In this document: positions 1 to 40,070 of the stretch, in pieces
Position numbering within the stretch: position 1 is the stretch's first letter
How the letters are laid out: each line of letters begins with the position of its first letter
DNA from: a virus
Length of the DNA: 50,103 nucleotides
Direction: 5' to 3' (one strand)
Virus record (IMG/VR): IMGVR_UViG_3300000956_000071
Coordinates: 1-50,103 of that record
Notes under the pieces: model-generated
Told to the model about the DNA's origin: nothing
Databases searched by the model: none
The model's input: only the letters and a program-made list of their open reading frames with translations
Program-made: the position numbers and the translations under genes

Positions 1-174
1 AGCGTCAACGTGTTCGTTGACTGGTCCAAAGTCTATGTAGTTCAAATTTGTACAACTTCTCCCGAAGGGAGGCACCTCGGTGACCTGGGAGAACGTAGTA
101 ACTCATGTGAGGTGGGTCACACAGACATGGTTGATCGCCGCCTACCATGTCTAGATCAGGTTGAGAGCAGTTAG
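1..174 (+). CDS. Possible 3' end of a gene entering from the left edge (doubtful)
   Basis: The first frame is open from base 1 to a TAG at 172-174 (57 codons), while the other two forward frames close within about 40 bases. No domain is recognised. An alternative is a 24-codon reading frame from a GTG near base 89 preceded by a GGGAGG. Composition is not clearly coding, so this may be chance. Confidence 0.2.
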   Translation, partial: SVNVFVDWSKVYVVQICTTSPEGRHLGDLGERSNSCEVGHTDMVDRRLPCLDQVESS

Positions 175-235
175 AACCTAGGAAACCATTAAAGGAAGGT
201 GAGGAGTCTATGCTTCTACCTTCTGTTAGTGGATA

Positions 236-257
236 GAGAGGCCCATAAAGGCCTCTC
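236..257. terminator. Stem-loop, possible terminator
   Basis: GAGAGGCC at 236-243 pairs perfectly with GGCCTCTC at 250-257 around a six-base loop. There is no long T tract, so its use as a terminator is an inference. Confidence 0.45.
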
Positions 258-290
258 AATGAAAATTTGATAGATACATGTAAGTATTAC

Positions 291-340
291 TACATACAGT
301 TACTGATAACTACTGTATGTAAGGGCCAGTAAGGCCCTTA
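291..340. repeat. Two adjoining inverted repeats
   Basis: TACATACAGT (291-300) pairs with ACTGTATGTA (312-321). Directly adjoining it, TAAGGGCC (320-327) pairs with GGCCCTTA (333-340). The second resembles the terminator-like stems on both sides; the first looks more like an operator or processing hairpin. Confidence 0.5.
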
Positions 341-359
341 TGAATAAATACATGTATCA

Positions 360-378
360 GAGGCCCCTTAAGGGCCTC
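360..378. terminator. Stem-loop, possible terminator
   Basis: GAGGCCC (360-366) pairs with GGGCCTC (372-378) around a five-base loop. It is followed by CAATGAAGG, the same trailer type that follows the hairpin at 236-257. Confidence 0.4.
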
Positions 379-427
379 AATGAAGGTAATACTGGTATTA
401 ATCGCTACTAACGTAGCTCTTAATACT

Positions 428-449
428 GCAACTGCCTAACGGCAGTTGC
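428..449. other. Hairpin upstream of the HNH gene
   Basis: GCAACTGCC (428-436) pairs perfectly with GGCAGTTGC (441-449), a nine base-pair stem with a four-base loop. It ends just before the AGGGG ribosome site of the HNH gene, so it could affect that gene's mRNA. Confidence 0.45.
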
Positions 450-456
450 TATAGGG

Positions 457-777
457 GTGAAAGTTTTGAGAACTTCAGGTCACTGGAAGAAGTCTGACCG
501 CAAGGGAAGACTGCCAAAGAATTGGTTTAGTCTCCGCAAGAGAGTTCTCGTCAGAGACTCTCATCAGTGTCAGTCATCGAACTGTGGCCGAAGGGCCACA
601 GAAGTAGATCACATCGTCCGAGGGGACGATCATAGTCTCAGCAATCTTCAAAGTTTGTGCAGGGACTGTCACAGGGCTAAAAGCTCCCAAGAGGGAGTCA
701 TGGAACGTCAACGCAAGAGGGCGCTTGGAAAGCGAACTCCAGAGAAGCATCCTGGTCTCAGGAAGACCAGAAACTAA
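457..777 (+). CDS. HNH endonuclease
   Basis: HNH nuclease of 106 residues. The beta-beta-alpha metal motif is visible: Cys38 and Cys43 form one zinc pair, VDHI at 50-53 supplies the catalytic Asp-His, Asn63 is the middle residue, and CRDCH at 68-72 gives the second Cys pair and final His. HNH proteins next to terminase genes are known to assist cos cleavage and packaging in many phages, and this one lies directly before the small terminase. The start is uncertain: GTG at 457 gives the longest frame, but the AGGGG at 453-457 is better spaced for a TTG at 466. The Lys/Arg-rich tail may contact DNA. Confidence 0.85.
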   Translation: MKVLRTSGHWKKSDRKGRLPKNWFSLRKRVLVRDSHQCQSSNCGRRATEVDHIVRGDDHSLSNLQSLCRDCHRAKSSQEGVMERQRKRALGKRTPEKHPGLRKTRN

Positions 778-794
778 ACCACCCAGGAGGTGAC

Positions 795-1256
795 ATGGCA
801 GCATCAGTTAACAAGGCAAACGGACCTGTACCCAAGCGTTCGTCTGAGCGTGTTCGTACTCATGATGATGCTAGTATCGAGAAGGTCCAAGCTTTTGGTG
901 TTGTCAAGAAGCCTGACTTGGGTCTAGGGGATAATCCACACCCCATTATCACAGACTTCTGGAACTCTATCGGAGAATCAGCCCAGTCACGGTATTACGA
1001 ACCTTCCGACTGGCAATACCTTCGTGTGAGTCTCCACTTTTTGAACAAGCTTCTGAGTGTGGGTAACCCTTCTGCTCAGATGCTGACTGTTGTGAATCAG
1101 ATGCTGACTGATCTTCTGGTGTCAGAGGGATCAAGGCGCAGGGTTCGCATGGAGATTGAACGTGAACAGACCAAGGACAACGTTGTGAACATCTCAGATT
1201 ACTTCCGGGATCTCGCGTCCAAGAACGACCTTGGTGATATGTTCAACTATAGCTAA
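795..1256 (+). CDS. terS: Terminase small subunit
   Basis: A 153-residue protein of the actinophage small-terminase type: a basic, disordered N terminus (about 1-40), then a helical region with PHPIITDFWNSIGESAQ near 50, a central helical segment likely to oligomerise, and a basic VSEGSRRRVRMEIER segment near 115. It would recognise viral DNA and hand it to the large subunit (5561-7240), from which it is separated by lysin, tRNAs and a fibre gene. ATG follows a strong AGGAGGTGAC site. Assignment rests on family resemblance and on the neighbouring HNH gene. Confidence 0.75.
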   Translation: MAASVNKANGPVPKRSSERVRTHDDASIEKVQAFGVVKKPDLGLGDNPHPIITDFWNSIGESAQSRYYEPSDWQYLRVSLHFLNKLLSVGNPSAQMLTVVNQMLTDLLVSEGSRRRVRMEIEREQTKDNVVNISDYFRDLASKNDLGDMFNYS

Positions 1257-1267
1257 CAACAAAGTTT

Positions 1268-1311
1268 CCTGGGTTGAGTCGGTGTTACTCTCCTTCCGCT
1301 GACTCCCCAGG
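1268..1311. other. Long interrupted hairpin upstream of the endolysin
   Basis: CCTGGG (1268-1273) and GAGTC (1276-1280) pair with GACTC (1301-1305) and CCCAGG (1306-1311), giving eleven base pairs with a two-base bulge and a 20-base loop. There is no T tract. It sits between the small terminase and lysin genes and may reduce or regulate read-through. Confidence 0.5.
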
Positions 1312-1338
1312 ATTTAATCCAAGTGAGGAAACAGCCCC

Positions 1339-2082
1339 ATGGCACTCTGCCCATTCGCAGTACATGAGCTGTTGCCTGAAAACAACAGCCAGAACAGAAT
1401 CACCCCAACCACGGTTATTTGTCATCGTGCGGTTTCAAGCGCCAAGGACCTGTACGGTTACTGGAATTCTCCAGGAATTGTTCTAGAGTCCCACTTCTAC
1501 ATCAGCGAAGATGGAACCATCTATCAGTACATGGACACCAATGTTCGCGCTGATGCGAATGTGGATGCCAACGCGTTTGCAGTGTCTATTGAGACTTGGG
1601 ATGGCGGCAACACTCCCGACTCATGGGGGTGGAACCCAGCTCAGCTCAAGTCACTCAAGAGGCTGATCCTATGGGTCTGCAATGTCCACGGTATCAAGAA
1701 GGCTCCGGCCCAGACTTGGAACGGTGGAGGTATCGGCGGACACAACTGGTTCCCGGAACCTTGGGCAGACGGCCCTAGGGGATGTCCAGGCACCGCACGA
1801 AACGCACAACTACGCAATGAAATTATTCCTGCCGTCGCGGCGGGTGTTACGGAGGATGACGTGACTTGGGACGATGAGGCTCTAACGCTCAAGAACGGGG
1901 TGGTGATCACCTTCCGAGAGCTGTTTAAGTCCATGGACAACAACGGCAGTGAGGTACGGGATCGTCTACGCATCGTTGAGCAGAAGATTGACAACATCGT
2001 GGTAGGTGGAATCGACATTGACCTACTCGTAGCCAAGATTCTGGAAAAGCTTGATGTAGACCTAGTATCTCGTGGGTCCTAA
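1339..2082 (+). CDS. Endolysin, N-acetylmuramoyl-L-alanine amidase
   Basis: A 247-residue lysin that would cleave the amide bond between muramic acid and the stem peptide. Residues about 20-165 form an amidase_2/PGRP-like domain with probable zinc ligands His29 (VICHRAV), His135 (GGHNWFP) and Cys149 (GCPG), and the DGTIYQYMDT strand typical of actinophage amidases. The last ~75 residues are not a recognised cell-wall-binding domain; they contain a helical segment (SEVRDRLRIVEQKIDNI) that could oligomerise. No signal peptide is seen, so release depends on the holin, which lies 20 kb away. ATG follows GAGGAA. Confidence 0.88.
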   Translation: MALCPFAVHELLPENNSQNRITPTTVICHRAVSSAKDLYGYWNSPGIVLESHFYISEDGTIYQYMDTNVRADANVDANAFAVSIETWDGGNTPDSWGWNPAQLKSLKRLILWVCNVHGIKKAPAQTWNGGGIGGHNWFPEPWADGPRGCPGTARNAQLRNEIIPAVAAGVTEDDVTWDDEALTLKNGVVITFRELFKSMDNNGSEVRDRLRIVEQKIDNIVVGGIDIDLLVAKILEKLDVDLVSRGS

Positions 2083-2144
2083 TGGACAAGTGCTTTTGCA
2101 ATATCTGCGAAAGGTACCACTCTCCTAAGTGTCCAGGAGGCTAA
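2082..2144 (+). CDS. Cys-rich micropeptide, 20 residues
   Basis: The ATG overlaps the lysin TAA (TAATG), indicating translational coupling. The peptide MDKCFCNICERYHSPKCPGG has four Cys and one His (CxC-x2-C-x3-x-H-x4-C spacing), compatible with one zinc site. Function unknown. It is one of many Cys-rich micro-ORFs in this window. Confidence 0.5.
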   Translation: MDKCFCNICERYHSPKCPGG

Positions 2145-2154
2145 TTAAATACTT

Positions 2155-2215
2155 GTGCAGTAAAAAGATGTCTGCACGGGCCCTTGGAGTAGAGGGCTTC
2201 ATAATATTCTACTCC
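2155..2215. other. Two hairpins ahead of the tRNA array
   Basis: GTGCAG (2155-2160) pairs with CTGCAC (2172-2177), and GGAGTAGA (2186-2193) pairs with TCTACTCC (2208-2215). The second ends five bases before the first tRNA, so it may be a processing signal or a 5' border of the tRNA transcript. Confidence 0.5.
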
Positions 2216-2219
2216 TCCG

Positions 2220-2294
2220 GTGGACAACGCCAGTAGGTAATAGGCACGGGGCTCATAACCCTGTATATGGCAGGTTCGAATCCTGCTGTCCGCA
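2220..2294 (+). tRNA. tRNA with CAT anticodon (Met-type)
   Basis: Acceptor GTGGACA pairs with TGTCCGC (one G-T pair), the anticodon loop CTCATAA gives CAT at 2254-2256, and the T-arm GCAGG/CCTGC encloses TTCGAAT. Whether it is elongator, initiator or lysidine-type Ile cannot be decided from sequence. CCA is not encoded. Confidence 0.85.
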
Positions 2295-2296
2295 CT

Positions 2297-2368
2297 CTGT
2301 AGTTAGTTTAACGGCAAAACCCTAGGTTGTGACCCTAGAGTTACTCGGTTCAACTCCGGTACTACAGT
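2297..2368 (+). tRNA. tRNA-His (GTG)
   Basis: CTGTAGT pairs perfectly with ACTACAG; anticodon stem CTAGG/CCTAG with loop TTGTGAC gives GTG. CCA follows directly (2369-2371) and abuts the next tRNA. Oddity: the position before base 1 is T and the discriminator is T, whereas bacterial His tRNAs normally carry an extra G opposite C73. Confidence 0.85.
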
Positions 2369-2371
2369 CCA

Positions 2372-2443
2372 CGGAACTTAGCTCAGTGGGAAGAGCAACC
2401 GGTTGAAGCCCGGTGCGCGGCGGTTCGAATCCGTCAGTTTCGG
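2372..2443 (+). tRNA. tRNA-Phe (GAA)
   Basis: CGGAACT pairs with AGTTTCG; anticodon stem ACCGG/CCGGT with loop TTGAAGC gives GAA; T-arm GGCGG/CCGTC. It starts on the base following the His tRNA CCA. The discriminator is G rather than the usual A. Confidence 0.85.
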
Positions 2444-2447
2444 CAAT

Positions 2448-2518
2448 GTGGCATTAGTGTATAGACTGCACGGCTGGCTTCCACCCAGCAAGAGGGAGTT
2501 TGATTCTCCCATGCTGCT
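2448..2518 (+). tRNA. tRNA-Gly (TCC)
   Basis: GTGGCAT pairs with ATGCTGC (two G-T pairs); anticodon stem GCTGG/CCAGC with loop CTTCCAC gives TCC; T-arm GGGAG/CTCCC. The T discriminator is normal for Gly. Confidence 0.85.
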
Positions 2519-2520
2519 CC

Positions 2521-2591
2521 GCCATATTAGCTCAACGGTAGAGCTCCTGTTTAGTAATCAGGTGATGAGGGTTCAATTCCTTCATGTGGCT
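2521..2591 (+). tRNA. tRNA-Thr (AGT)
   Basis: GCCATAT pairs with ATGTGGC; D-stem GCTC/GAGC; the loop TTAGTAA gives AGT at 2553-2555. The last pair of the anticodon stem is a T-T mismatch, which widens the loop, and an A34 anticodon is uncommon in bacteria outside Arg. Isotype therefore less certain than tRNA identity. Confidence 0.75.
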
Positions 2592-2595
2592 CTTT

Positions 2596-2667
2596 TGCTT
2601 GTTCGTCCAACTGGCAGGACATCTGGCTCTGAACCAGAAGACTGAGGTTCGAATCCTTGACAGGCAG
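2596..2667 (+). tRNA. tRNA-Gln (CTG)
   Basis: TGCTTGT pairs with ACAGGCA; D-stem GTCC/GGAC; anticodon stem TCTGG/CCAGA with loop CTCTGAA gives CTG; G discriminator as expected for Gln. Confidence 0.85.
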
Positions 2668-2750
2668 CAGGTAGGATTGTGGGTACGCTTCGAATAGTAA
2701 GAAACCCTCTGGCGGTTGGCTGGGTCCGGCATTAATCAAAAGCCAGCTTT

Positions 2751-2822
2751 GTTTACGTATCTCAATGGTAGAGGACCAGGTTGTCAACTTGGGAGATGTG
2801 GGTTCAAGTCCCATCGTAAGCG
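2751..2822 (+). tRNA. tRNA-Asp (GTC)
   Basis: GTTTACG pairs with CGTAAGC; anticodon stem CCAGG/CTTGG with loop TTGTCAA gives GTC; G discriminator fits Asp. An 83-base spacer precedes it. Confidence 0.85.
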
Positions 2823-2823
2823 C

Positions 2824-2896
2824 GCTTGTGTAGGCCATCTGGAGAGCCGCTAGATTTAGGTTCTAGTGCATGCAGGTTCGACTCCTGTCACAAGTA
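2824..2896 (+). tRNA. tRNA with TAG anticodon (Leu-type), short variable arm
   Basis: GCTTGTG pairs with CACAAGT; anticodon stem CTAGA/TCTAG with loop TTTAGGT gives TAG, reading CTA Leu codons; T-arm GCAGG/CCTGT. The variable region is only five bases, although bacterial Leu tRNAs are class II with a long arm. The A discriminator fits Leu. Confidence 0.75.
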
Positions 2897-2991
2897 CTTA
2901 GTTGGCAGCTTAACTGCCTCAGTCCAGCGATGGCTACATACTCCTGCCCTTCAGTGTGGCTGGTGGTGATGCTGTATCGAGTGGCTGATAA

Positions 2992-3063
2992 GGGTCTTTG
3001 ATCCAAAGGAAACGATTCTTCCCTACGAAGGAAGCCATGGGGGTTCGAGTCCCTCAAGACCCA
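2992..3063 (+). tRNA. tRNA-Arg (ACG)
   Basis: GGGTCTT pairs perfectly with AAGACCC; anticodon stem CTTCC/GGAAG with loop CTACGAA gives ACG, which is normally deaminated to ICG; A discriminator. Confidence 0.88.
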
Positions 3064-3162
3064 CGAGTTGGTAGTGCATACGTTAAACTACCCGTAGGTG
3101 GCTCGACGCGTCAGGTTGGCGGTTCATGTGCGCAGTGATCCGGATAACCAGAGGGCTAACAA

Positions 3163-3233
3163 TCCTGTATAGCATAAGGGCAATGCGGCGGACTGTTAAT
3201 CCGCTAATCTAGGTTCGAGTCCTGGTATGGGAG
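3163..3233 (+). tRNA. tRNA-Asn (GTT)
   Basis: TCCTGTA pairs with TATGGGA (two G-T pairs); anticodon stem GCGGA/TCCGC with loop CTGTTAA gives GTT; G discriminator as usual for Asn. Confidence 0.86.
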
Positions 3234-3307
3234 CTGGCAGGCGTGCGCACAGCATCCGTTCGAATCGGACGTTTCTTTGTACCGTAAACGATATCCACGG
3301 AACACAG

Positions 3308-3381
3308 GCCTATCTAGCTCAATTGGTCAGAGCGTCTCCCTGATGAGGAGAAGGTACTAGGTTCAAAACCTAGGGTAGGTA
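3308..3381 (+). tRNA. tRNA-Ile (GAT)
   Basis: GCCTATC pairs with GGTAGGT (first pair G-T); D-arm TAGCTCAATTGGTCAGAGC; anticodon stem TCTCC/GGAGA with loop CTGATGA gives GAT; T-arm CTAGG/CCTAG; A discriminator. Confidence 0.87.
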
Positions 3382-3460
3382 CAAGCTGCGTACTTCCCAG
3401 AACGTACGTAGAGACGGGTGGTACTGGACTATGGTGAGGCCAGTTTCGCGACCCTAACAA

Positions 3461-3531
3461 GCTTCCGTAGCTGAGGGGATTAGCTCGGGACTCTTAATCC
3501 TGAGACGTTGGTTCGATTCCAACCGGGAGTA
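3461..3531 (+). tRNA. tRNA-Lys (CTT)
   Basis: GCTTCCG pairs with CGGGAGT; anticodon stem CGGGA/TCCTG with loop CTCTTAA gives CTT; T-arm GTTGG/CCAAC; A discriminator. Only three bases separate it from the following Ser tRNA. Confidence 0.87.
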
Positions 3532-3534
3532 CTT

Positions 3535-3617
3535 GGAAGCTAGCACGCGATGGTGCGTAAGCGGTCTTGAAAACCGTGCCGGGTGCAAGCCTGAGGGTTC
3601 GACTCCTTTAGTTTCCG
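3535..3617 (+). tRNA. tRNA-Ser (TGA)
   Basis: GGAAGCT pairs with AGTTTCC; anticodon stem GCGGT/ACCGT with loop CTTGAAA gives TGA. A long variable arm marks it as class II; G discriminator is typical of Ser. Confidence 0.88.
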
Positions 3618-3620
3618 CTT

Positions 3621-3704
3621 GGAAGATGGATCAGCCGGTGCTGAAGTCGGATTGCTAATCCGATCCGGCGTTTCTCGCCGTGGGTTCAACTCCTACTTCT
3701 TCCG
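3621..3704 (+). tRNA. tRNA-Ser (GCT)
   Basis: GGAAGAT pairs with TTCTTCC (the seventh pair is T-T); anticodon stem TCGGA/TCCGA with loop TTGCTAA gives GCT; long variable arm with CGGCG/CGCCG; G discriminator. The acceptor resembles that of the preceding Ser tRNA. Confidence 0.87.
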
Positions 3705-3750
3705 CAGGTGGCCTTAAACGCGGCCTGTCTTAGGGCAGGTGGTCACACAT

Positions 3751-3819
3751 ATCAGTTGGGCTATGGTAGCCAAGCGGTCTCCAAAACCGTAGGACAGGGT
3801 TCAATTCCTTGAGCTGGTG
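3751..3819 (+). tRNA. tRNA-Trp (CCA)
   Basis: ATCAGTT pairs with AGCTGGT; anticodon stem GCGGT/ACCGT with loop CTCCAAA gives CCA; G discriminator as usual for Trp. At 69 bases it is short, with a reduced D region. Confidence 0.82.
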
Positions 3820-3820
3820 T

Positions 3821-3907
3821 ATGTCTAATTATGAAGGCACTGTCATCTGTCCGCGATGTGGTCGGGTAATCCCCACTGAATGTGATGGGAGTTGCTACAA
3901 GAAGTGA
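3821..3907 (+). CDS. CxxC micropeptide, 28 residues
   Basis: ATG two bases after the Trp tRNA opens a 28-codon frame ending TGA. It has CPRCG at 10-14 and a second Cys pair (ECDGSC), a small zinc-ribbon pattern. No clear ribosome site, since upstream sequence is the tRNA 3' end. Function unknown; support comes mainly from the pattern shared with the next two frames. Confidence 0.45.
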   Translation: MSNYEGTVICPRCGRVIPTECDGSCYKK

Positions 3908-3930
3908 CTAGGGAAGTATGCGACCACAGT

Positions 3931-4020
3931 ATGGGAAGCAGATTAGTCCTCGAAGATAAATGGTTGGTAGAACGCTGTAAGGGTTGCGGTGCAGAGATGG
4001 GGAGAGAATGGCAGGGGTAA
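3931..4020 (+). CDS. CxxC micropeptide, 29 residues
   Basis: A 29-codon frame from ATG 3931 to TAA 4018-4020 carrying RCKGCGAEM. GGGAAG lies about 14 bases upstream. It overlaps the next micro-ORF by 13 bases. Only one Cys pair, so zinc binding would need a dimer or partner. Confidence 0.4.
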   Translation: MGSRLVLEDKWLVERCKGCGAEMGREWQG

Positions 4021-4079
4021 GTTACGTTGTGTATTGTGGTAAGTGTGGCAAGGTGCATGCTTACGATGTAGAGTGTTAG
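4008..4079 (+). CDS. CxxC micropeptide, 23 residues
   Basis: ATG at 4008 is preceded by GGGGAGAGA, a good ribosome site. The peptide has CGKCGKVHAYDVEC: one CxxC, a His and a final Cys, enough for a C3H zinc site. It ends just before the Pro tRNA. Confidence 0.5.
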   Translation: MAGVSYVVYCGKCGKVHAYDVEC

Positions 4080-4086
4080 AAATGAT

Positions 4087-4160
4087 CTGGCTGTAGCTCA
4101 GCTTGGTAGAGCCGCGCGTTTGGGGCGCGATGGTCGGGGGTTCAAATCCTCCCAGTCAGA
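4087..4160 (+). tRNA. tRNA-Pro (TGG)
   Basis: CTGGCTG pairs with CAGTCAG; D-arm GCTC/GAGC; with the normal base 26 the loop is TTTGGGG and the anticodon TGG. A one-base register shift (CGCGC/GCGCG) would read TTG but removes base 26. T-arm GGGGG/CCTCC; A discriminator fits Pro. Confidence 0.83.
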
Positions 4161-4163
4161 CGA

Positions 4164-4188
4164 GAGGGCCACTGCAACACTAGCCCTC
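4164..4188. other. Hairpin between Pro and Val tRNAs
   Basis: GAGGGC (4164-4169) pairs with GCCCTC (4183-4188) in the 30-base spacer. It may aid processing of the tRNA transcript. Confidence 0.35.
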
Positions 4189-4190
4189 AA

Positions 4191-4261
4191 GCCCTGTTAG
4201 TTCAATGGGAGAACGGCTGTCTTACACACAGCTCATGGCAGTTCGATTCTGTCACGGGGTA
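4191..4261 (+). tRNA. tRNA-Val (TAC)
   Basis: GCCCTGT pairs with ACGGGGT (two G-T pairs); anticodon stem GCTGT/ACAGC with loop CTTACAC gives TAC; T-arm GGCAG/CTGTC; A discriminator. Last tRNA of the array, 26 bases before the fibre gene. Confidence 0.87.
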
Positions 4262-4287
4262 CTTTATTGGTTTGAAAGGATGTATCA

Positions 4288-7240: not shown

Positions 7241-8652
7241 TGGCTACTCAATATGACTCACTAGTAGATGATCTACTGACCGAGCTGAATGGTAAGCAGG
7301 GTGAACTAGAAGAGAACCAGGCTTATTTTGACGCTACATGGCGTCTGAGGGCCCTTGGGTTGTCAACCCCGCCTGAAATGCGCTTCCTGACGGCCGCCGT
7401 AGGCTGGCCTGCCATGTACATTCAGTCGCTTGAAGAGCGGTTGGACGTGGAAGATTTCCGGATGGGTGACGAATCCCAGGGTGACGACCGACTACGTGAC
7501 TGGTGGCAGGCAAATCTGCTGGATGTGGAATCAGGCCCAGGACATACAGAGGCCCTGGTCCATGGTATCGCGTACGTTACCGTGTCAGCACCCAACGAGG
7601 ACATCGGCGAAGACCCATCTATCCCGATCATAAGGCTGGAAAGCCCGTTCAATTTCATTGCCAAGCAGAACTACCGAACTCGTAAGGTCAAGAATGCTCT
7701 GAGGGTATACGAAGACCCAGAGATCCCCAACGAGAAGTATGTAGCGCTGTATCTCCCCAATGAGACCGTGTACCTAGGACAGTCCAAGAACCAGTCTTCA
7801 CAGTGGTTCATTGACTACCGGGTGCAGCATGATCTAGACCGAGTTCTTGTGTCACCTTTGGCTAACAGGGCTCGGATTCACGAGTGGTGTGGTAGGTCTG
7901 AGATTTCCAGGGAACTCAGGTCCGCAACCGATGCCGCTTCGCGAATCATGATGAATTTGCAGTCTGCTGCTGAGCTTATGGCCATCCCACAGCGAATTCT
8001 ATTCGGTGTATCCGAGGAAGATTTCCCGGTGGATGTCTCTCAGCCAGGTGCCGCAATGGAAGCCTATATGGCTCGAATCATGGCCTTCGGAAATGAGGGC
8101 GGCAAGGCAACTCAGTTCCAGTCAGCCGATCTGCGAAACTATGTAGAGGCTCTTCAGGAGCTGGCCAAGCAAGTAGCTTCTTACACTGGTCTTCCTCCGC
8201 AGTATCTGTCTTTCTCTTCTGAAAACCCGGCGTCTGCTGAGGCCATCAAGTCCTCTGAGTCCAGGCTGGTCAAGAAGGTAGAACGAAAGGCACGGCTGTT
8301 TGGGCAGGCATGGGAAGAGGCTATGCGTCTAGGCATGCTGGTAATCGATGGATCTATTCCACAGGATGCCTTCAAGCTAGAAACCGTATGGCGTGATCCA
8401 TCTACTCCTACTTTTGCTGCTAAGTCTGACGGAATCACCAAGCTACACCAGCAGGGAATCATCCCGACCGAACAGGCCCGGATTGATCTCGGTTACTCCG
8501 ACATTCAGCGTAAGGAAATGGACAAGATGGATAAGTCCGATCCTGTGTCTCAGTTGAACCAGCTCCTGTTCACCCAGGAAGCCACTCAGCAGGGACTAGA
8601 TAACCAGAAGAACAGCAATGCAGCTAAGTCAGTACAGCCGCGCTCAGCGTAG
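7240..8652 (+). CDS. Portal protein
   Basis: A 470-residue portal of the SPP1 gp6-like type common in actinophages; a ring of these forms the DNA entry channel and tail attachment vertex. Indicators: length, the N-terminal RLRALGLSTPPEMRFL and VGWPAMYIQSLEERLDV segments, ALVHGIAYVTVSAP, the helical SASEAIK-type stretch near PASAEAIKSSESRLVKKV, and position between TerL and the MuF-like gene. Start overlaps the TerL stop (TAATG). Its 3' end overlaps the next gene by 35 bases. Confidence 0.88.
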   Translation: MATQYDSLVDDLLTELNGKQGELEENQAYFDATWRLRALGLSTPPEMRFLTAAVGWPAMYIQSLEERLDVEDFRMGDESQGDDRLRDWWQANLLDVESGPGHTEALVHGIAYVTVSAPNEDIGEDPSIPIIRLESPFNFIAKQNYRTRKVKNALRVYEDPEIPNEKYVALYLPNETVYLGQSKNQSSQWFIDYRVQHDLDRVLVSPLANRARIHEWCGRSEISRELRSATDAASRIMMNLQSAAELMAIPQRILFGVSEEDFPVDVSQPGAAMEAYMARIMAFGNEGGKATQFQSADLRNYVEALQELAKQVASYTGLPPQYLSFSSENPASAEAIKSSESRLVKKVERKARLFGQAWEEAMRLGMLVIDGSIPQDAFKLETVWRDPSTPTFAAKSDGITKLHQQGIIPTEQARIDLGYSDIQRKEMDKMDKSDPVSQLNQLLFTQEATQQGLDNQKNSNAAKSVQPRSA

Positions 8653-9427
8653 CATTACGTCTAGGGCTGTTCAGCTAATTCTGCAACTTCTGTTTCCGTA
8701 CCGAGGCGTCCCCCTTACATCAACATCCTGGCGATTCATTGTGAGGGGGATGTTCCCAATCGTAGATACCGCCCGGCGCGAGTCTGCGATGTTGATGCGC
8801 GAGTATTACGACTCTCAGCGTAGGGAACACTTCGGAAACGATGATTACGACCTTGACCTGCCATCCTATGACATCGCGTGGCTAGAAGAATCCTTGCGCC
8901 CTGTGTTCAAGGAAGCCCGTGTGATTGACCTGGACGATGGGAAGGTTGTTGAGACTGCTCTTCGAGTGGCCAAGGAAGTTGAGAATGGTGGCCGTCGTAT
9001 GGCGCTCAATGCGGTGCGTGGAGAAACCCGCCGTGTTGGGTTTGCAAGGGTGGCTACGGGTCGTGAGACCTGCGCGTTCTGCCTGATGCTGGTGTCCCGT
9101 GGGCCTGTCTATAAGACGGAGCTCAAGGCAGGGGCCAAGCATGAAGGCGCTGCTGAGATTCTAGAGACTCGGAATGATTTTTCCGACGAAGAACTTGATG
9201 ACTTGATGACCAGGTGGCACCCGGGGTGTGACTGCAAGGTGGTTCCTGTCTTTGACCAGAACAACTGGCAGGGATACGACGACTGGAAGCGCATGGAAAA
9301 GATTTGGGCTGACTACACCAAGGGCTTTTCGGGTGCCAGGTTTACCAAGAACGACAAACTAAATGCTTTCCGGCGTGCGATCGAGCGTGGAGAAGTAAAC
9401 CCCGCTGAGTTTGCAGCCGCTGCTTAA
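8618..9427 (+). CDS. MuF-like minor capsid / head morphogenesis protein
   Basis: A 269-residue protein packed inside the head or involved in its assembly. The MuF signature GFARVATGRETCAFCLMLVS lies near residues 146-165, and RWHPGCDCKVVPVF near 206-219 completes the Cys/His-rich core. It starts at ATG 8618 inside the portal 3' end, the usual arrangement for portal-MuF pairs. There is no C-terminal toxin or protease domain. Confidence 0.85.
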   Translation: MQLSQYSRAQRSITSRAVQLILQLLFPYRGVPLTSTSWRFIVRGMFPIVDTARRESAMLMREYYDSQRREHFGNDDYDLDLPSYDIAWLEESLRPVFKEARVIDLDDGKVVETALRVAKEVENGGRRMALNAVRGETRRVGFARVATGRETCAFCLMLVSRGPVYKTELKAGAKHEGAAEILETRNDFSDEELDDLMTRWHPGCDCKVVPVFDQNNWQGYDDWKRMEKIWADYTKGFSGARFTKNDKLNAFRRAIERGEVNPAEFAAAA

Positions 9428-9472
9428 CGCTCCCTGGCGGAACGTTACTACTAACATATCCCAGGAGGATAA

Positions 9473-9961
9473 ATGTCCGACGACAACAAGACTGACGACG
9501 TTACTAAGCCAGACCAGAACACCGACGCCATCCCGGATTGGGTTCGTAAGTCCCTTTCCGAGGCGAACAGTGAGGCTGCTAAGTACCGCGTCAAGGCCCA
9601 GACCGCTGCTGAAGAGGCAAAGGCCGAAGTCACTGCGTCATTTACCGACCAGATCAAGAGTCTGTCGGATGAAAAGTCTGCCGTTCTGGCAGAACGTGAT
9701 ACCGCAGCCAGCAACTACACCAAGCTGATTGCGGCTCTCGAAGCCGGTGTTCCAGGTGATACGGCTGTCGAGTTTGCTGCACTTCTCCAGGGAAGCAACG
9801 CCGATGAATACAAGGCGCATGCGGAGAAGCTGAAGGGCATGTTTGGCACCCCTGCCAAGCAGAAGGCTGTAGACCACACTGCCGGATTCAACGGCAAGTC
9901 AGACGTGGCTCCAGAAGACGCCTTTGCAGCACTTTTCCAGTCTAGGCTCACCAACAAGTAA
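9473..9961 (+). CDS. Capsid scaffolding protein
   Basis: A 162-residue acidic, Ala/Lys/Glu-rich helical protein with a coiled-coil middle (residues about 30-90) directly before the capsid gene. Scaffold proteins guide capsid assembly and leave before packaging. ATG follows CAGGAGGATAA. Assignment is by composition, size and position, as such proteins have little sequence conservation. Confidence 0.8.
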   Translation: MSDDNKTDDVTKPDQNTDAIPDWVRKSLSEANSEAAKYRVKAQTAAEEAKAEVTASFTDQIKSLSDEKSAVLAERDTAASNYTKLIAALEAGVPGDTAVEFAALLQGSNADEYKAHAEKLKGMFGTPAKQKAVDHTAGFNGKSDVAPEDAFAALFQSRLTNK

Positions 9962-9970
9962 GGAACACTA

Positions 9971-10969
9971 ATGGCAATGCTAAACGAACTCGCTCCGAAT
10001 ACGAGCGAGAACCACCAGGGACGTCTTGCGTACGTTCCTGATGACCTCCTACCCAAGACCATTACCAATGAGATGTTTGCCAAGGCCCAGGAGAACTCAC
10101 TTGTTCTTCGTCTGGGTCGCCGCATTCCGGTCTCATTCGGTGAGACTGTTATCCCGGTAAACATCAAGCGTCCTGAGGTTGGCCAGGTTGGTACTGGTAC
10201 GACCAACGCACAGCGTGAAGGTGGCACTAAGCCGCTGACTGGTGTGGCGTGGGACAGCAAGGTAATGCAGCCGATCAAGCTTGCGACTATCGTTACTGTT
10301 TCTGAGGAATTTGCCCGCACTAACCCGCAGGGCTTCTACTCTCAGCTTCAGTCTGACCTGGCGTTTGCGATTGGTCGCGGTATTGACCTGGCGGTATTCC
10401 ACGGAAAGCAGCCTCTGACCGGTGCTGCGCTTCAGGGCATTGACTCGTCTAACGTCCTGAACAACACCACGAAGATTGTCAACACCGACACTTCGACCAC
10501 CAACAACCTGTATGACGAACTGATCGCGGCTTACTCACTGGTAACTGCTGATGACTTCGACTTCGACGGTTGGGCCGTGGACACTCGGTTCCGTCCTCGT
10601 CTGATCCAGGAAGGTGCGGAGCGTGACGTTAACGGTAACCTGGTTAACCCGCTTGGCCTTTCCCTGAACGGCACCGTGGGTAACATCCTCGGCTTCCAGG
10701 CTCAGTACGGCAAGGCTGTACGTGGTGACCTTGGTGCGGCTACTGCGACTACCACTCAGATGATTGGTGGAGAATTCCAGCAGCTTGCGTGGGGCTTTGC
10801 GGATAACATCCGATACAAGATCTCTGACCAGGCTACGCTGACTGATGGTACCAACACCATCTCGATGTGGCAGACCAACCAGGTCGCGCTGCTTGTTGAG
10901 TGCACCTTCGGTTGGGTTGTAAATGACCTGGACGCCTTCGTGAAGGTGATCAACCCATCGGGTAGCTAA
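9971..10969 (+). CDS. Major capsid protein, HK97 fold
   Basis: A 332-residue shell protein. The N-terminal arm leads to LPKTITNEMFAKAQENS, then the E-loop region rich in Gly (VGQVGTGTTNAQREGG), SEEFARTNPQGFYSQLQSDL spine helix, and a C-terminal A-domain ending in DLDAFVKVINPS. No N-terminal delta domain, consistent with a separate scaffold gene. It uses frequent GTN/ACC codons typical of highly expressed genes. A small hairpin lies downstream. Confidence 0.93.
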   Translation: MAMLNELAPNTSENHQGRLAYVPDDLLPKTITNEMFAKAQENSLVLRLGRRIPVSFGETVIPVNIKRPEVGQVGTGTTNAQREGGTKPLTGVAWDSKVMQPIKLATIVTVSEEFARTNPQGFYSQLQSDLAFAIGRGIDLAVFHGKQPLTGAALQGIDSSNVLNNTTKIVNTDTSTTNNLYDELIAAYSLVTADDFDFDGWAVDTRFRPRLIQEGAERDVNGNLVNPLGLSLNGTVGNILGFQAQYGKAVRGDLGAATATTTQMIGGEFQQLAWGFADNIRYKISDQATLTDGTNTISMWQTNQVALLVECTFGWVVNDLDAFVKVINPSGS

Positions 10970-10984
10970 TTTGTAGGGGGAGGT

Positions 10985-11030
10985 TCCAACACGGGGCGTT
11001 GGATTAAAGGCACAGCCACAGTCGCCTTCC
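10985..11030. other. Small hairpins after the capsid gene
   Basis: TCCAAC (10985-10990) pairs with GTTGGA (10998-11003), and AAGGC with GCCTT (11007-11029). A pyrimidine-rich stretch follows. Together they may weaken read-through from the capsid gene into the glycosyltransferase. Confidence 0.35.
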
Positions 11031-11054
11031 TCTCTTCATCTTTTAGGGACCGCC

Positions 11055-12023
11055 ATGAAGATTGCAGTATTTCCACACTTCTATATTCCGTATCGTAATG
11101 CGGGCTCTGAAACCATGCTGCACGCCATGTGCAAGCGACTTATCGAGGCAGGACATGAGGTTGTTGTGTGGGCAACCGTCCTCCCCGAGGCTCCTCCTTA
11201 CTATGAGTACGAGGGAGTTCCGGTCTATGTGACCAACGTGGTGTATGGGCGTCAGCAGATCAAGGCATGGAAGCCTGATGTGATTGTGTCCCACCACGAC
11301 AACACTCAGAGGGCAGCCAGGATCTCTGCGGATCTGGGTATCCCGTTTGTGTTCATCATGCACAACGACTTTCTGGCCAACCAAGAGCTACTCACCCTGA
11401 AGCCGGACTTGACTGTCTTCAATACCGAGTGGATCCGAGCCAAGTTTGACCATGTGGTGAATCGGTCCATGGTTCTGCACCCTCCTGTGTGGGCACATGA
11501 ACACGCCACTACTCCGGGTGACATGATCACCTTGGTTAACCTGAATGAGCATAAGGGCGCTCGTATTTTCTACGAGATGGCCAAGCGCTTTCCTGACGAG
11601 AAGTTCCTTGGGGTAGTGGGAGGACATGGAGATCAGATCATTGATGACTCCTTGCCCAACGTTACTATTCAACCTCAGACGGCCAACATGAAGGATGATG
11701 TGTGGGCTCGGACGAGGGTTCTTCTCATGCCCAGCATCTATGAGTCTTATGGCATGGCCGGGGTTGAGGCATTGGCTTCTGGTATCCCTGTCGTGGCACA
11801 CCCCACATCGGGGCTGAAAGAGTCACAGGGACCTTTTGGGCTGTTCCTGGATAGAGGAGACCTGAACGCATGGGAAAACACGCTCCTGAGGCTGTCAGAC
11901 CCCAAAGAGTGGCATACAGCATCTGTGCTGGCAAAGAAACGTTCACAAGAGCTTGATCCAGCCCCTGAACTCGATCGCTGGGTCGAGGAAGTAGAGAGGC
12001 TATCAAGTGGCAAGGCTAACTAA
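11055..12023 (+). CDS. Glycosyltransferase, GT4 type
   Basis: A 322-residue retaining, NDP-sugar-dependent transferase with two Rossmann-like halves. N-terminal half: PHFYIPYRNAGSETMLHAM, typical of sugar acceptors' Gly-rich loop. C-terminal half: VNLNEHKGARIF, then the donor-binding E-x7-E motif in SIYESYGMAGVEALASG near residue 230. Placed directly after the capsid gene. In mycobacteriophages, glycosyltransferases within structural modules are known to glycosylate virion proteins; a similar role is inferred here, with host surface sugar modification as the alternative. ATG after TAGGGACC. Confidence 0.85.
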   Translation: MKIAVFPHFYIPYRNAGSETMLHAMCKRLIEAGHEVVVWATVLPEAPPYYEYEGVPVYVTNVVYGRQQIKAWKPDVIVSHHDNTQRAARISADLGIPFVFIMHNDFLANQELLTLKPDLTVFNTEWIRAKFDHVVNRSMVLHPPVWAHEHATTPGDMITLVNLNEHKGARIFYEMAKRFPDEKFLGVVGGHGDQIIDDSLPNVTIQPQTANMKDDVWARTRVLLMPSIYESYGMAGVEALASGIPVVAHPTSGLKESQGPFGLFLDRGDLNAWENTLLRLSDPKEWHTASVLAKKRSQELDPAPELDRWVEEVERLSSGKAN

Positions 12024-12036
12024 TGGCCGTGTGATC

Positions 12037-12174
12037 ATGGAAGTACGTGATGACAAGGCTGAGCACTACGCCCTAATGACGGGCTACAAGATTATCCACG
12101 ATGAACCCCAGGAGCCAGAGCCGGTTATTCCCGAGCCTCGCAAGCCTAGGGGACGACCAAAGAAGGCGAGTTAA
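12037..12174 (+). CDS. Small AT-hook protein, 45 residues
   Basis: ATG at 12037 (a GTG at 12031 is in frame) opens 45 codons ending TAA, whose last A begins the next ATG. The tail KPRGRPKKAS is an AT-hook-like minor-groove motif after a Pro/Glu linker. Small proteins ending this way are common between capsid and connector genes of actinophages; their role is unknown. Confidence 0.7.
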   Translation: MEVRDDKAEHYALMTGYKIIHDEPQEPEPVIPEPRKPRGRPKKAS

Positions 12175-12392
12175 TGAAGTCTGCTCCGATCAAGGGTTAC
12201 CGTGATCTTTCAGAGGCTGAGGTAAATCTCATCAATGAGCTGAAGGAACTAGCGGTAGTTGTAGGCAACACGGTTGAAGAGGTTTTCGCACGAGACGAGT
12301 CAGATAAGCGCTGGGCGGCTATCGCGCGCACCGACCTTCAGACTGGATTCATGGCGCTGATTCGGGCGATTGCCAAGCCAGAAACGTTCTAA
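12174..12392 (+). CDS. Acb2/Tad1-like anti-defence protein
   Basis: A 72-residue helical protein. The C-terminal half, KRWAAIARTDLQTGFMALIR followed by AIAKP, matches the Acb2/Tad1 hairpin family pattern (RW-x-x-I-x-x-T-x-x-Q-x-GFMAL-x-RA). Members form hexamers that sequester cyclic di- and trinucleotides or gcADPR, blocking CBASS and Thoeris immunity. The N-terminal helix GYRDLSEAEVNLINELKEL also fits. It sits between the AT-hook gene and the first connector, coupled to the former by TTAATG. Assignment is from motif memory; ligand is not predictable. Confidence 0.75.
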   Translation: MKSAPIKGYRDLSEAEVNLINELKELAVVVGNTVEEVFARDESDKRWAAIARTDLQTGFMALIRAIAKPETF

Positions 12393-12401
12393 GGAGGCCT
12401 A

Positions 12402-12893
12402 ATGGCGTACGCAACTGTAGCAGACGTTGAGGCGCGTCTAGGTCGTACGCTAGATGCCTCAGAGTCTCAGATCGTTAGCACTCGTCTGAACGACATCGAA
12501 CTGATGATCAGGTATCGCATTCCAGACCTGGATACTAAGGTGTCCACCGGTGATATTGATCCGCAGATTGTGGTCATGGTGGAATGTGATGCCATCCTCA
12601 GGTTGATTAGAAACCCAGACGGTTTCACCGCAGAGACTGATGGTAACTACTCGTACCAGATCTCTTCTGAAGTAGCATCAGGCAAGCTGGACATCCTCCC
12701 CAATGAATGGGCAATGCTGGGTATCAAGTCGGGGGCTTTCACTATTAGGCCTTCACTTGAGCCCTACTACAACAACTGCCCCTACCCTTGGGAGAATGTA
12801 CACCGCCCTTTTGCTGATTTCCCGGCGTGGGATAGGACCGCTCACCCTGAATGGTGTGAGTTCGTGACGGGAGATATCAAGTGTCCTTGCTAG
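12402..12893 (+). CDS. Head-tail connector (gp15/gp19-like adaptor)
   Basis: A 163-residue protein beginning AYATVADVEARLGRTLDASE, the helical opening typical of the adaptor that docks under the portal. The last ~45 residues are aromatic- and Pro-rich and end in Cys-Pro-Cys. ATG follows TAAGGAGG. Order (adaptor, stopper, completion protein, terminator, tail tube) supports the assignment. Confidence 0.78.
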   Translation: MAYATVADVEARLGRTLDASESQIVSTRLNDIELMIRYRIPDLDTKVSTGDIDPQIVVMVECDAILRLIRNPDGFTAETDGNYSYQISSEVASGKLDILPNEWAMLGIKSGAFTIRPSLEPYYNNCPYPWENVHRPFADFPAWDRTAHPEWCEFVTGDIKCPC

Positions 12894-13237
12894 ATAAGGG
12901 TCGAGAAAGCATCGTCCTCTACAACGAGGAAGCGTATACCGATCCAGACGGCAACCCATCCAGGCGTGCCAGTGCAACCGGCGTGACCGTTAACAACTGT
13001 GTGGTACAGCTAGCCGCCCAGTCAGGCACTTCACAGCGTCGTGAAGAACAGGACAACGAAGGGTTCGAGTCGGAACAGACTTACCGCTTGAGGCCTCCTA
13101 GGTCATTCACCACGGTTATCGGAATGATGGCCAAGGTGCAGTGGCGTGGGGAAATGTGGTCTGTAGTCGGCAAGGTGAAGAGGTATAACGGCTCTAACCG
13201 AACCGCACATATGGATTACATGATCAGGCGTAACTGA
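12881..13237 (+). CDS. Head-tail stopper
   Basis: A 118-residue protein with a small beta-barrel pattern (TYRLRPPRSFTTVIG ... VQWRGEMWSVVGKVKRYN) as in stopper proteins that close the portal after packaging. GTG start lies 13 bases inside the previous gene after GGGAG. It shares TGATG with the next gene. Named by position and fold pattern. Confidence 0.68.
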   Translation: MSLLDKGRESIVLYNEEAYTDPDGNPSRRASATGVTVNNCVVQLAAQSGTSQRREEQDNEGFESEQTYRLRPPRSFTTVIGMMAKVQWRGEMWSVVGKVKRYNGSNRTAHMDYMIRRN

Positions 13238-13557
13238 TGGCCAATAAGATTACGCTTATTCCACAGCGTGATATGTCTAAGCATCTTGCTTTGGATGACA
13301 AGGTTCAGGCACACCTGAGGTCTCACGCCCAGAAGATTGCAGCCCGTGCACGTGGACTGCTTGCTATTCACCGAAAGACCGGCGAGCACACTGTCCAGTA
13401 CGAAGGGCACGTCTCCCAGAAGTATGGCCACATTGACCACTTTGTAGTGATGGAAGGCCGCGCGGCTGCAAGTGTTGAGTTCGGGCACTTCACCGAAAAC
13501 GGAAGATGGGTAATGGGCTTGTATATCCTGACCATCGCCTCTGGAATGTTCGAGTAA
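13237..13557 (+). CDS. Tail completion / neck protein (DUF5403-like)
   Basis: A 106-residue protein resembling the small actinophage neck proteins between stopper and terminator: basic helix KIAARARGLLAIHRKTGEHT, then VSQKYGHIDHFVVMEG and ASVEFGHFTENGRW. The VEFGHF segment is typical of HK97 gp10-like completion proteins. ATG overlaps the upstream stop. Confidence 0.65.
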   Translation: MANKITLIPQRDMSKHLALDDKVQAHLRSHAQKIAARARGLLAIHRKTGEHTVQYEGHVSQKYGHIDHFVVMEGRAAASVEFGHFTENGRWVMGLYILTIASGMFE

Positions 13558-13566
13558 AGGATTCGT

Positions 13567-13977
13567 ATGGTAGTTCGTAATATGCCTCGAATCCAGGAAG
13601 TGCTTCTACCTATCCTAAAGGCCGGGCTGCCTGGAGTTCAGGTAGTTTCCTGGGTTCCAGACATCGAGGATCGACAGTTCCCCATCGTCGGAGTACGGCG
13701 TTTGGGAGGCCTTCCAGAAGACGTGAACCTACTGGACAAGCCGGTAGTAGAGCTCACCGTGTACTCGGCGGATGGCCTGGTTGCGTGTGAAAACCTCATG
13801 CTGGACGTTCGGCAGGTTGTTTACAACGCGTGGAAGAATCAGACAGTTGTCCCTGATAAGGGGCATATCAGTTCATATTTTGAAACCCTAGGTCCTACCC
13901 AGTTTGACTCCCCCTTTGACGACACCTGGCGAGTTCAGATGCTGGTGCAACTAGGGCTACGACCACCAAGGAATTAA
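13567..13977 (+). CDS. Tail terminator
   Basis: A 136-residue alpha-beta protein (PRIQEVLLPILKAGLPGVQV, then FPIVGVRRLGG and a C-terminal WRVQMLVQLGLRPPRN strand) in the position where lambda gpU-type proteins cap the tail tube. ATG follows AAAGGATT. Assigned by size, order and pattern. Confidence 0.7.
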   Translation: MVVRNMPRIQEVLLPILKAGLPGVQVVSWVPDIEDRQFPIVGVRRLGGLPEDVNLLDKPVVELTVYSADGLVACENLMLDVRQVVYNAWKNQTVVPDKGHISSYFETLGPTQFDSPFDDTWRVQMLVQLGLRPPRN

Positions 13978-13991
13978 GGAGTTAGCCCTAA

Positions 13992-14570
13992 ATGGCACTC
14001 AATGACAATGCGGTTTTGACTCCGGCGGTAGGGTACATCTACGTAGCCGCAGTTGACACTGCTTCACCTACCCCGGCGGCTATCGAGGCCTTTGACCCGG
14101 ATGTCGGCATCGTCGGCTGGACTCAGCTTGGACACACCTCGCGTGATGACCTACCCGTGTTCGGCTTTGATGGCGGAGACCAGGAAACTCGTGGGTCTTG
14201 GCAGAACGCATCGCTTAAGCGTGTCGTAACTGAGGTAGCACAGGACTTCGTTACGTTCAACGCCCTACAGCTCGACGAAACTATTCTTTCGTACTACTAC
14301 GGCGTTACTAATCCAGGTTCTACTGTTGGAAAGTTCGACGTAGCAGACGCTTCAACGGCGGGTATTGACACCGCACTTCTGATTGTGATCGTTGATGGAG
14401 ATGCCACTATCGGTTTCCATGCATCCAAGGTGACTATCAGCCGTGAGGATTCAATTGAACTGGCCATTGACGAGTTCGTGTCGGTTCCACTTCGTGCTTC
14501 GATTCTGAAGTCTGGCTCCAACCCACTGTTCTCGTGGCTGTCTTACGACACCGGCGTCAACCTGACGTAA
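13992..14570 (+). CDS. Major tail (tube) protein
   Basis: A 192-residue beta-rich protein with LTPAVGYIYVAAVDTASP at the N terminus, TRGSWQNASLKRVV and a long loop, the usual actinophage tube-protein pattern. It is followed by the strongest rho-independent terminator of the rightward arm and by the chaperone pair, consistent with very high expression. ATG follows AAGGAGTTAG. Confidence 0.85.
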   Translation: MALNDNAVLTPAVGYIYVAAVDTASPTPAAIEAFDPDVGIVGWTQLGHTSRDDLPVFGFDGGDQETRGSWQNASLKRVVTEVAQDFVTFNALQLDETILSYYYGVTNPGSTVGKFDVADASTAGIDTALLIVIVDGDATIGFHASKVTISREDSIELAIDEFVSVPLRASILKSGSNPLFSWLSYDTGVNLT

Positions 14571-14576
14571 TTGCTT

Positions 14577-14622
14577 GAGGGGGTGTAATTCCTGGCGGAC
14601 CCTGTTACACCCCCTCTTTTTC
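14577..14622 (+). terminator. Rho-independent terminator after the tail tube gene
   Basis: GAGGGGGTGTAA (14577-14588) pairs perfectly with TTACACCCCCTC (14605-14616), a twelve base-pair stem with a 16-base loop, followed by TTTTTCTTG. It likely lowers transcription of the tail assembly genes relative to the tube gene. Confidence 0.88.
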
Positions 14623-14662
14623 TTGTTTAAGGGTCCACATAAACTTATTGAAAGGGTTCGCC

Positions 14663-15001
14663 ATGACCAACGAATTTACTCTAGACGACCTGAACACCGC
14701 ACTTGAGAAGAAGTACGGTCCCTTCGTGTTTTCTGTAGGCAAGGAGAAGTTTGTACTTCAGCAGATCCTTCGCCTGCCCAAGGAGACTCGTCAGATTGTC
14801 AAGGCTCAGCTAGAGCTTCTGGACAACAAGAAGAATGAACTCGACGAAGACGAGATGCTTGCCATTCTCAAGGCCGTTGTAGAGAACGTCATTGAGGGCG
14901 ACAAGGCAGAGCGTCTGTTTGAGCTGCTGGACAATGACCTTGTTAAGGTCACCATTCTGTTCGAGAAGTGGGCGGAGCGCACTCAGGCGGGGGAAGCCTA
15001 A
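14663..15001 (+). CDS. Tail assembly chaperone (gpG-like)
   Basis: A 112-residue acidic helical protein (FTLDDLNTALEKKYG; KLE-rich middle; ending ERTQAGEA). Like lambda gpG it should hold the tape measure before tube polymerisation. ATG at 14663 after AAAGGG is preferred over an upstream TTG. Near its end a G-run allows a -1 shift into the following frame, giving the longer gpGT-type product. Confidence 0.82.
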   Translation: MTNEFTLDDLNTALEKKYGPFVFSVGKEKFVLQQILRLPKETRQIVKAQLELLDNKKNELDEDEMLAILKAVVENVIEGDKAERLFELLDNDLVKVTILFEKWAERTQAGEA

Positions 15002-25494: not shown

Positions 25495-25547
25495 TAGTGA
25501 CCCCCACACTGATTAATGGGCTTCTGACATAACGGACAGATTGGCAT
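25494..25547 (-). CDS. Cys-rich micropeptide, 17 residues
   Basis: ATG overlaps the RNA ligase stop (TGATG). The peptide MPICPLCQKPINQCGGH has three Cys and a His with C-x2-C spacing. It is followed by another overlapping micro-ORF. Existence inferred from coupling and pattern. Confidence 0.45.
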   Translation of the reverse strand: MPICPLCQKPINQCGGH

Positions 25548-26293
25548 CACTTCTGCTCCCACTTGTGAAAGGCATCGTCCTTGAGCAGCATCTTGGTACG
25601 AGTCCTGGTCTCATTGTTCCAGATAATGATTCCCTCAGCGTCTGCTGCCTTCTGGTAGACGTATTCCATGCCTTCCAACCCCGGAATCCCGGTGTGAACA
25701 TCCTCGCGCTTAGCACCAACAACCTTGGTTCCGTAAGTCTCCAGGTCGTGCATGATATTGGGGATGGTAAAGACATCACACTGACCATGGTGCAGCAGAG
25801 GAACAGTCTCCAGGCCATCCACGTTTTCCAGCTCATAGCCGTTAGACTCGTTGTACTTGGTGGGGTGGAACAAAGCGAATCGCTTGCCCTCGATGCCCAG
25901 GGGGTTCTTCTGGATACCCTCGCCGTACCATTCACCATAGTGGTAGCCGTAGCCAAGCGTGTCCATCAGTGCGCCTGCATTCTCGTACACCCACTTGGCA
26001 AAGCCGTAGTTGTCGTCATCAGGGGTGATGAGCCGCTTACGAGACTGGGCGGAGACCACACCGTTGTAGATGACAACACATGCGTTAGTGCCGTCGATCT
26101 TCTCCGTGATGGTCTTGTTCTTGTTCTCCCGAGGAGTAGATCCCCACCCCTTGAACTCGCCCATGGTGCTTTCCTTCTTATCCTTTTCCAGCGCAGCACC
26201 AATGCTGGAAATGAACTCCACAAGCTCCTCATCGGTTGGGCCTTCGAACAGTTCGAGCTGAGCAGCCTCAATCATTTCTGCGGTAGCATTCAT
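25547..26293 (-). CDS. RNA ligase, Rnl2-like
   Basis: A 248-residue ATP-dependent nucleotidyltransferase. Motif I is EKIDGTN with the adenylated Lys65; GEWYGEGIQ near 120 matches motif III; AEGIIIWN near 218 matches motif IV; and RTKMLLKDD near 232 matches motif V. It lacks the T4 Rnl2 C-terminal domain. Such enzymes seal nicked or broken RNA. A second, unrelated ligase is encoded at 42387-43439. ATG follows AAGGAG with GTTACT spacer. Confidence 0.85.
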   Translation of the reverse strand: MNATAEMIEAAQLELFEGPTDEELVEFISSIGAALEKDKKESTMGEFKGWGSTPRENKNKTITEKIDGTNACVVIYNGVVSAQSRKRLITPDDDNYGFAKWVYENAGALMDTLGYGYHYGEWYGEGIQKNPLGIEGKRFALFHPTKYNESNGYELENVDGLETVPLLHHGQCDVFTIPNIMHDLETYGTKVVGAKREDVHTGIPGLEGMEYVYQKAADAEGIIIWNNETRTRTKMLLKDDAFHKWEQK

Positions 26294-39903: not shown

Positions 39904-40070
39904 TGATCCAGCTCCCCTACCCTGCGTTCCAGCTCTTCGACAATGCCATCAGCCCTGTCCTCATCGTTCAGCCTGAGGGCACGACCATTTCCATCACGTA
40001 CCCACATCTCGTCATCCTTGCGGATCTTGAAGGTGTTAGGCTTGACTTCCTTCTTCTCAAACCTGGGCAC
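39900..40070 (-). CDS. Hypothetical protein, 56 residues
   Basis: Start set at GTG 40070, which shares TAGTG with the kinase stop and has GAGGGGAG upstream. Charged sequence (KIRKDDEMWVRDGNGRALRL; EELERRVGELDQ). No family recognised. Confidence 0.6.
   Translation of the reverse strand: MPRFEKKEVKPNTFKIRKDDEMWVRDGNGRALRLNDEDRADGIVEELERRVGELDQ

Follow-up and report, generated by a model that had tools for sequence, protein, structure and literature searches.

The locus described here raises the question of why a very small gene, expected to counteract host immunity, stands among the genes that build a phage head. The window, which is the whole stretch of DNA that was analysed, spans one complete IMG/VR virus record (50,103 bases), and the gene in question occupies positions 12174–12392 on its plus strand. 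With high probability, this gene encodes an Acb2-type sponge directed against CBASS, was acquired by one L5/cluster-A-like phage clade in the gap between capsid and connector genes, and would be expressed late, together with the capsid genes.

The virion genes of the window lie on the plus strand, between about 5.5 and 22 kb; the minus strand carries the replication genes, DNA polymerase among them. As the capsid protein and the DNA polymerase have most of their relatives in mycobacteriophages of the L5/cluster A type, with identity reaching about 62%, the host is probably an actinobacterium. The gene for the major capsid protein (9971–10969, plus strand; PF05065, E 1.9e-18; phrog_10) is followed by one for a family-4 (GT4) glycosyltransferase (11055–12023, plus strand; PF13692/PF13439; phrog_26352, E 6.4e-90), a 45-residue ORF (12037–12174, plus strand), the acb2-type gene, and the genes for head–tail adaptor Ad1 (12402–12893, plus strand; phrog_137, E 7.2e-39; PF09355) and head closure protein Hc1 (12881–13237, plus strand; phrog_320, E 3.8e-40). 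These PHROGs and Pfam assignments agree with an earlier note on this DNA, which had placed the gene between capsid and connector genes; it was silent on the glycosyltransferase beside the capsid gene and on the small ORF that overlaps the acb2 start codon. Located directly 3' of the capsid gene and fixed in the clade, the glycosyltransferase is a candidate virion enzyme, possibly glycosylating the capsid. In the phage collection its relatives were confined to two records of Streptomyces phage TurkishDelight, where they also lie between capsid and tail genes.

The acb2-type ORF begins with ATG at position 12174 and its stop codon ends at 12392, with KRWAAIARTDLQTGFMAL forming residues 45–62. 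A probable Shine–Dalgarno sequence, GAAGG, can be read directly at 12162–12166 (plus strand), 7 nt 5' of the start, and the start itself overlaps the stop of the upstream ORF in the sequence TAATG. A second Shine–Dalgarno sequence, AAGGAGG, overlaps the stop codon of acb2 and serves the next gene. The upstream ORF ends in a basic, AT-hook-like tail (RKPRGRPKK); a homologue could be detected in only some of the sister phages, and neither Pfam nor PADLOC assigns it to a family. Between sister copies of acb2, dN/dS values range from 0.02 to 0.23, and these are rough since dS is often near or above 1. The ORF is genuine, and strong purifying selection acts on it.

The 72-residue product is a bona fide Acb2 relative, and thus a new member of a known family of sponges. 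It matches the Pfam model PF24729 (Acb2_Tad1_hairpin) across profile positions 1–58 of 58, with an E-value of 2.9e-16 and 59.9 bits against a curated cut-off of 27; this is no chance match, and the ORF and hairpin motif described in the earlier note are confirmed at 12174–12392. By sequence, its PDB relatives are Acb2 (p26) and T4 Vs.4 only. Acb2 was matched at 8e-14 with the single sequence and at 5.6e-27 with a profile, and Vs.4 was matched at 0.32 and 6e-7, respectively. An AlphaFold2 model built from 38 relatives (mean pLDDT 88.3) consists of two helices, residues 14–39 and 45–67, with no strand. In a Foldseek search with this model, the top eight rows were all Acb2 or Vs.4 (8h2x at E 5.5e-5, probability 1.00) and the next row had an E-value above 1. 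VIA-align gave Z-scores of 8.7 for Vs.4 and of 8.4 and 8.0 for Acb2, the alignment to 8h2j (Z 8.4) having an rmsd of 2.4 over 71 residues; the best unrelated chain reached 6.8, and rows below 7, which are ordinary helical hairpins, were disregarded. Since such hairpins readily give middling Z-scores, the sequence evidence outweighs VIA-align in identifying the protein as Acb2. The comparison of a predicted structure with Acb2 that had been recommended as a check therefore came out in favour of the proposed identity, in line with family profile, matches to solved structures and pocket conservation.

Relatives of the protein are encoded in 237 phage records and at 41 IMG/VR loci. Others occur in plasmid records (H143–H152), on mostly non-mobilizable Klebsiella plasmids of about 108 kb that are possibly phage-plasmids. 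Among PHROGs, only phrog_717 and phrog_29522 were matched, both of unknown function, and no connector family was. The expectation that annotators would label the gene a connector-type hypothetical protein is thus not borne out, the entry of phrog_717 reading "unknown function". The NCBIfam matches were all weak and stayed far under the cut-offs, and PADLOC returned nothing for this ORF.

Comparison with characterised Acb2 proteins indicates which features of the sponge are retained. The Acb2 proteins of Pseudomonas phages (p26, PDB 8H2J, 8H2X and 8IXZ; PaMx33 gp24) have the same fold and pocket tyrosine, and share with the window protein an N-terminal IKGYRDLS and a C-terminal RW-x-AI-x-x-TD-x-QTG-x-MA-x-IRAIA-x-P. 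However, they are 92–94 residues long, with a longer turn between the helices, and the PaMx33 gene ends a run of replication genes facing the virion genes, whereas acb2 of the window is inside the head operon. In p26, Tyr11 and Lys26 were the cGAMP contacts that were mutated; their counterparts here would be Tyr9 and Lys24, both of which are kept. T4 Acb2/Vs.4 (PDB 7UQ2) shares the fold at 25% identity, and the positions of its Tyr8 and of the following Asn and Lys are kept in the window protein. Tyr8 aligns with Tyr9, which is at least 90% conserved among 38 relatives, and the Y8A substitution in T4 Acb2 disrupts cyclic-dinucleotide binding (PMC12657218). Loss of the nucleotide-pocket residues, which would have spoken against a sponge, was thus not seen at the experimentally tested tyrosine. 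In T4 Acb2, Phe82 stacks on the ligand (PMC12657218). The aligned residue here is Ala67, and p26, solved with 3'3'-cGAMP, has alanine there too. Residues G8, N21, R46, T53, L55, Q56, G58, M60, R64 and P69 are invariant in the 38 relatives. Relative to crystallised p26, the turn that joins the two helices is shortened by about 20 residues, so the packing of the hexamer and the range of ligands may not be the same as in p26.

Acb2 genes are also annotated in phages of actinobacterial hosts, namely Xandras and BigBubba of cluster E (PMC11953737) and Statler of cluster EG (PMC13348362). These are likened to the window gene by annotation alone, as cyclic oligonucleotide sequestering proteins, and by gene number (101/102 of 144–147 in Xandras and BigBubba, 57 of 108 in Statler) they lie outside the head module.

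The history of the locus was followed in sister contigs, which were found in IMG/VR by a capsid-protein search that does not select for acb2. In all 15 sister contigs spanning the site (capsid identity at least 75%), the capsid-to-Ad1 gap holds both the glycosyltransferase and acb2, the latter always placed between the glycosyltransferase and Ad1 genes, and in all 13 outgroup loci spanning the gap (capsid identity 47–63%) it holds neither a glycosyltransferase nor acb2. Among GTDB contigs, a capsid search with the single window protein found nothing, and an alignment-based search found nine distant relatives, none of which carries Acb2. In one of the nine, L146, the capsid gene is followed by a 44%-identical glycosyltransferase and then directly by Ad1, the small ORF and acb2 being absent. 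Since capsid, GT4 and Ad1 occur there without acb2, the latter was gained or lost separately from the glycosyltransferase gene. The L146 sequence (positions 1–3714) is an actinophage-like structural contig within an Algoriphagus aestuarii assembly, where it is probably a contaminant. The simplest reading is that acb2 was a later addition that then became fixed in the window clade; it would have joined the capsid-to-connector gap of one L5/cluster-A-like actinophage clade, beside the glycosyltransferase gene.

A location between capsid and adaptor that is fixed across the whole clade would also suit a protein that now serves virion structure or assembly (as head decoration, connector or chaperone) and has ceased to act as a sponge, and the same gap is occupied by a head fibre gene in the cluster A phage Hermia. 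Nevertheless, scaffold, protease, capsid, Ad1, Hc1, Ne1, tail terminator and tail tube are all assigned to other ORFs, and the outgroup phages assemble without acb2. Moreover, the pocket positions are kept in common with relatives from unrelated contexts, and a 69%-identical copy stands in an unrelated gene set (L019). A purely structural role is accordingly very unlikely.

A further question is whether the position of acb2 in a head operon is odd, as the earlier note had held. Six hand-picked phages illustrate the range: in PaMx33 and Klebsiella phage IME279 the acb2 relatives close runs of replication genes, while in Leptolyngbya phage Lsp-JY19 the relative is one gene after the capsid gene, in Acinetobacter phage Ab9 before protease and capsid, in a Thiohalocapsa phage between portal and scaffold, and in Vibrio phage 1.246.O before the tail sheath. 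For a broader count, the other IMG/VR loci with enough flanking sequence were clustered by shared neighbours into 43 independent contexts, drawn from the best-scoring 80 matches, with genes called by a simple ORF picker and neighbours scanned with PHROGs. The count uses the per-gene scans; neighbour profiling by alignment yielded mainly family tallies. A head, packaging, connector or tail gene was found within three genes of acb2 in 13 contexts (L019, L023, L024, L025, L027, L035, L042, L088, L093, L097, L103, L127 and L128), and a replication or nucleotide-metabolism gene within the same distance, or at four genes in the case of L033, in 10 (L022, L028, L030, L033, L089, L091, L092, L095, L098 and L131). 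The remaining contexts comprise three near integrase, endolysin or PhoH genes, one that is ambiguous (L130) and 16 without assignment. Virion-module locations are therefore common in the sampled phages, about as frequent as replication-module ones (13 versus 10, n = 43); the count bears on how common the location is, not on enrichment over random small phage genes. The head-operon position of a sponge is not odd, and the earlier idea is corrected in this respect.

A phylogeny of 59 Acb2 proteins unites the window clade in a single group (94/84; recovered in 92% of bootstrap trees), and the virion-located label requires about seven changes. The AU test rejects one common clade of virion-located copies (p 0.0027, on a tree built from only 68 columns with many forks open), and for this reason acb2, as far as the sequences tell, moves between virion and replication gene neighbourhoods.

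The proposal of an Acb2/Tad1 sponge acting against both CBASS and Thoeris stands in its Acb2 part and fails in its Tad1/Thoeris part. Tad1 consists of an N-terminal beta-sheet domain followed by two helices, and gcADPR is a ligand of Tad1 and Tad2 (PMC12043709). Like the window protein, Tad1 contains a helical hairpin of the same Pfam family, and the PF24729 model takes in Acb2 and Tad1 alike; an action like that of Tad1, in which gcADPR is sequestered and Thoeris blocked, could for this reason be envisaged. Yet the beta domain is absent from the window protein, whose 72 residues form two helices and no strand in the AlphaFold2 model, and no Tad1 structure was matched by sequence or by fold. 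Without this domain the Thoeris claim is unsupported, and such a role is very improbable.

The Acb2 reading implies a specific mode of action. As in solved Acb2, the predicted helical-hairpin protein would assemble into a hexamer, which would sequester cyclic dinucleotides and possibly trinucleotides from CBASS enzymes, so that CBASS effectors would stay off and the cell would survive until lysis. Such phages plausibly meet CBASS, because, among 301 genomes from the family to which Mycolicibacterium houstonense belongs, 39 hold a CD-NTase (SMODS, PF18144); the SMODS domain was found in none of the five genomes carrying distant prophage relatives. With regard to timing, transcription of the left-arm virion genes in the cluster A4 phage Kampy is late, starting at about 30 min and following that of the replication arm (PMC4626039), and the overlap of the upstream stop with the acb2 start suggests co-translation within the late operon. 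The sponge would accordingly be expressed in the late phase with the capsid genes, as capsid-linked triggers of nucleotide-signalling immunity appear. That a virion-carried sponge, or one made from its own early promoter, acts at the start of infection is very unlikely, as its position among virion genes is the one point in favour, no packaging signals are known, the overlapping stop and start fit late-operon translation, and no sigma-70-like site was found in 8500–14700, a weak negative that also tells against the constitutive expression considered earlier.

Links between capsid proteins and immunity are known from other systems. When acb2 is deleted from a phage, escape mutations arise in the major capsid gene, although the wild-type capsid gene did not by itself provoke CBASS toxicity (PMC10419184). 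In staphylococci, the major head (capsid) protein is the direct trigger of Thoeris (PMC12578639). If the sponge is produced along with the capsid, it would be on hand when the alarm signal arises. Rather improbable is the wider idea that Acb2 genes recur in virion operons because the product matches in its timing, or even accompanies, the capsid proteins that trigger nucleotide-signalling immunity. In its strongest form, if true, some Acb2 would be packaged and delivered to the next cell.

The window further encodes 17 tRNAs, a polynucleotide kinase/phosphatase (PF13671 and PF25109), an RNA ligase of the T4 Rnl1 type (PF09511) and another RNA ligase (PF09414), and this set, located at 2220–4262 (plus strand) and at 40070–41050, 42387–43439 and 25547–26293 (minus strand), resembles a kit for supplying and mending tRNAs under attack by anticodon nucleases. 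The replication arm also carries a gene (26305–26670, minus strand) for a 121-residue YspA/cpYpsA-related SLOG protein (PF10686), a nucleotide-sensing domain type.

In biological terms, an uncultured clade of L5-like soil actinophages would possess a CBASS sponge as a fixed gene, one that was not found in its cultured cluster A relatives. That Acb2 recurs in unrelated phages next to capsid, protease, portal and sheath genes leads to the hypothesis that the timing of sponge production may follow the capsid-linked triggers of CBASS and Thoeris. For annotation, it suggests a simple rule, namely that small IKGYRDLS...DLQTGFMALIRA proteins within head modules should be read as sponges and not as connectors.
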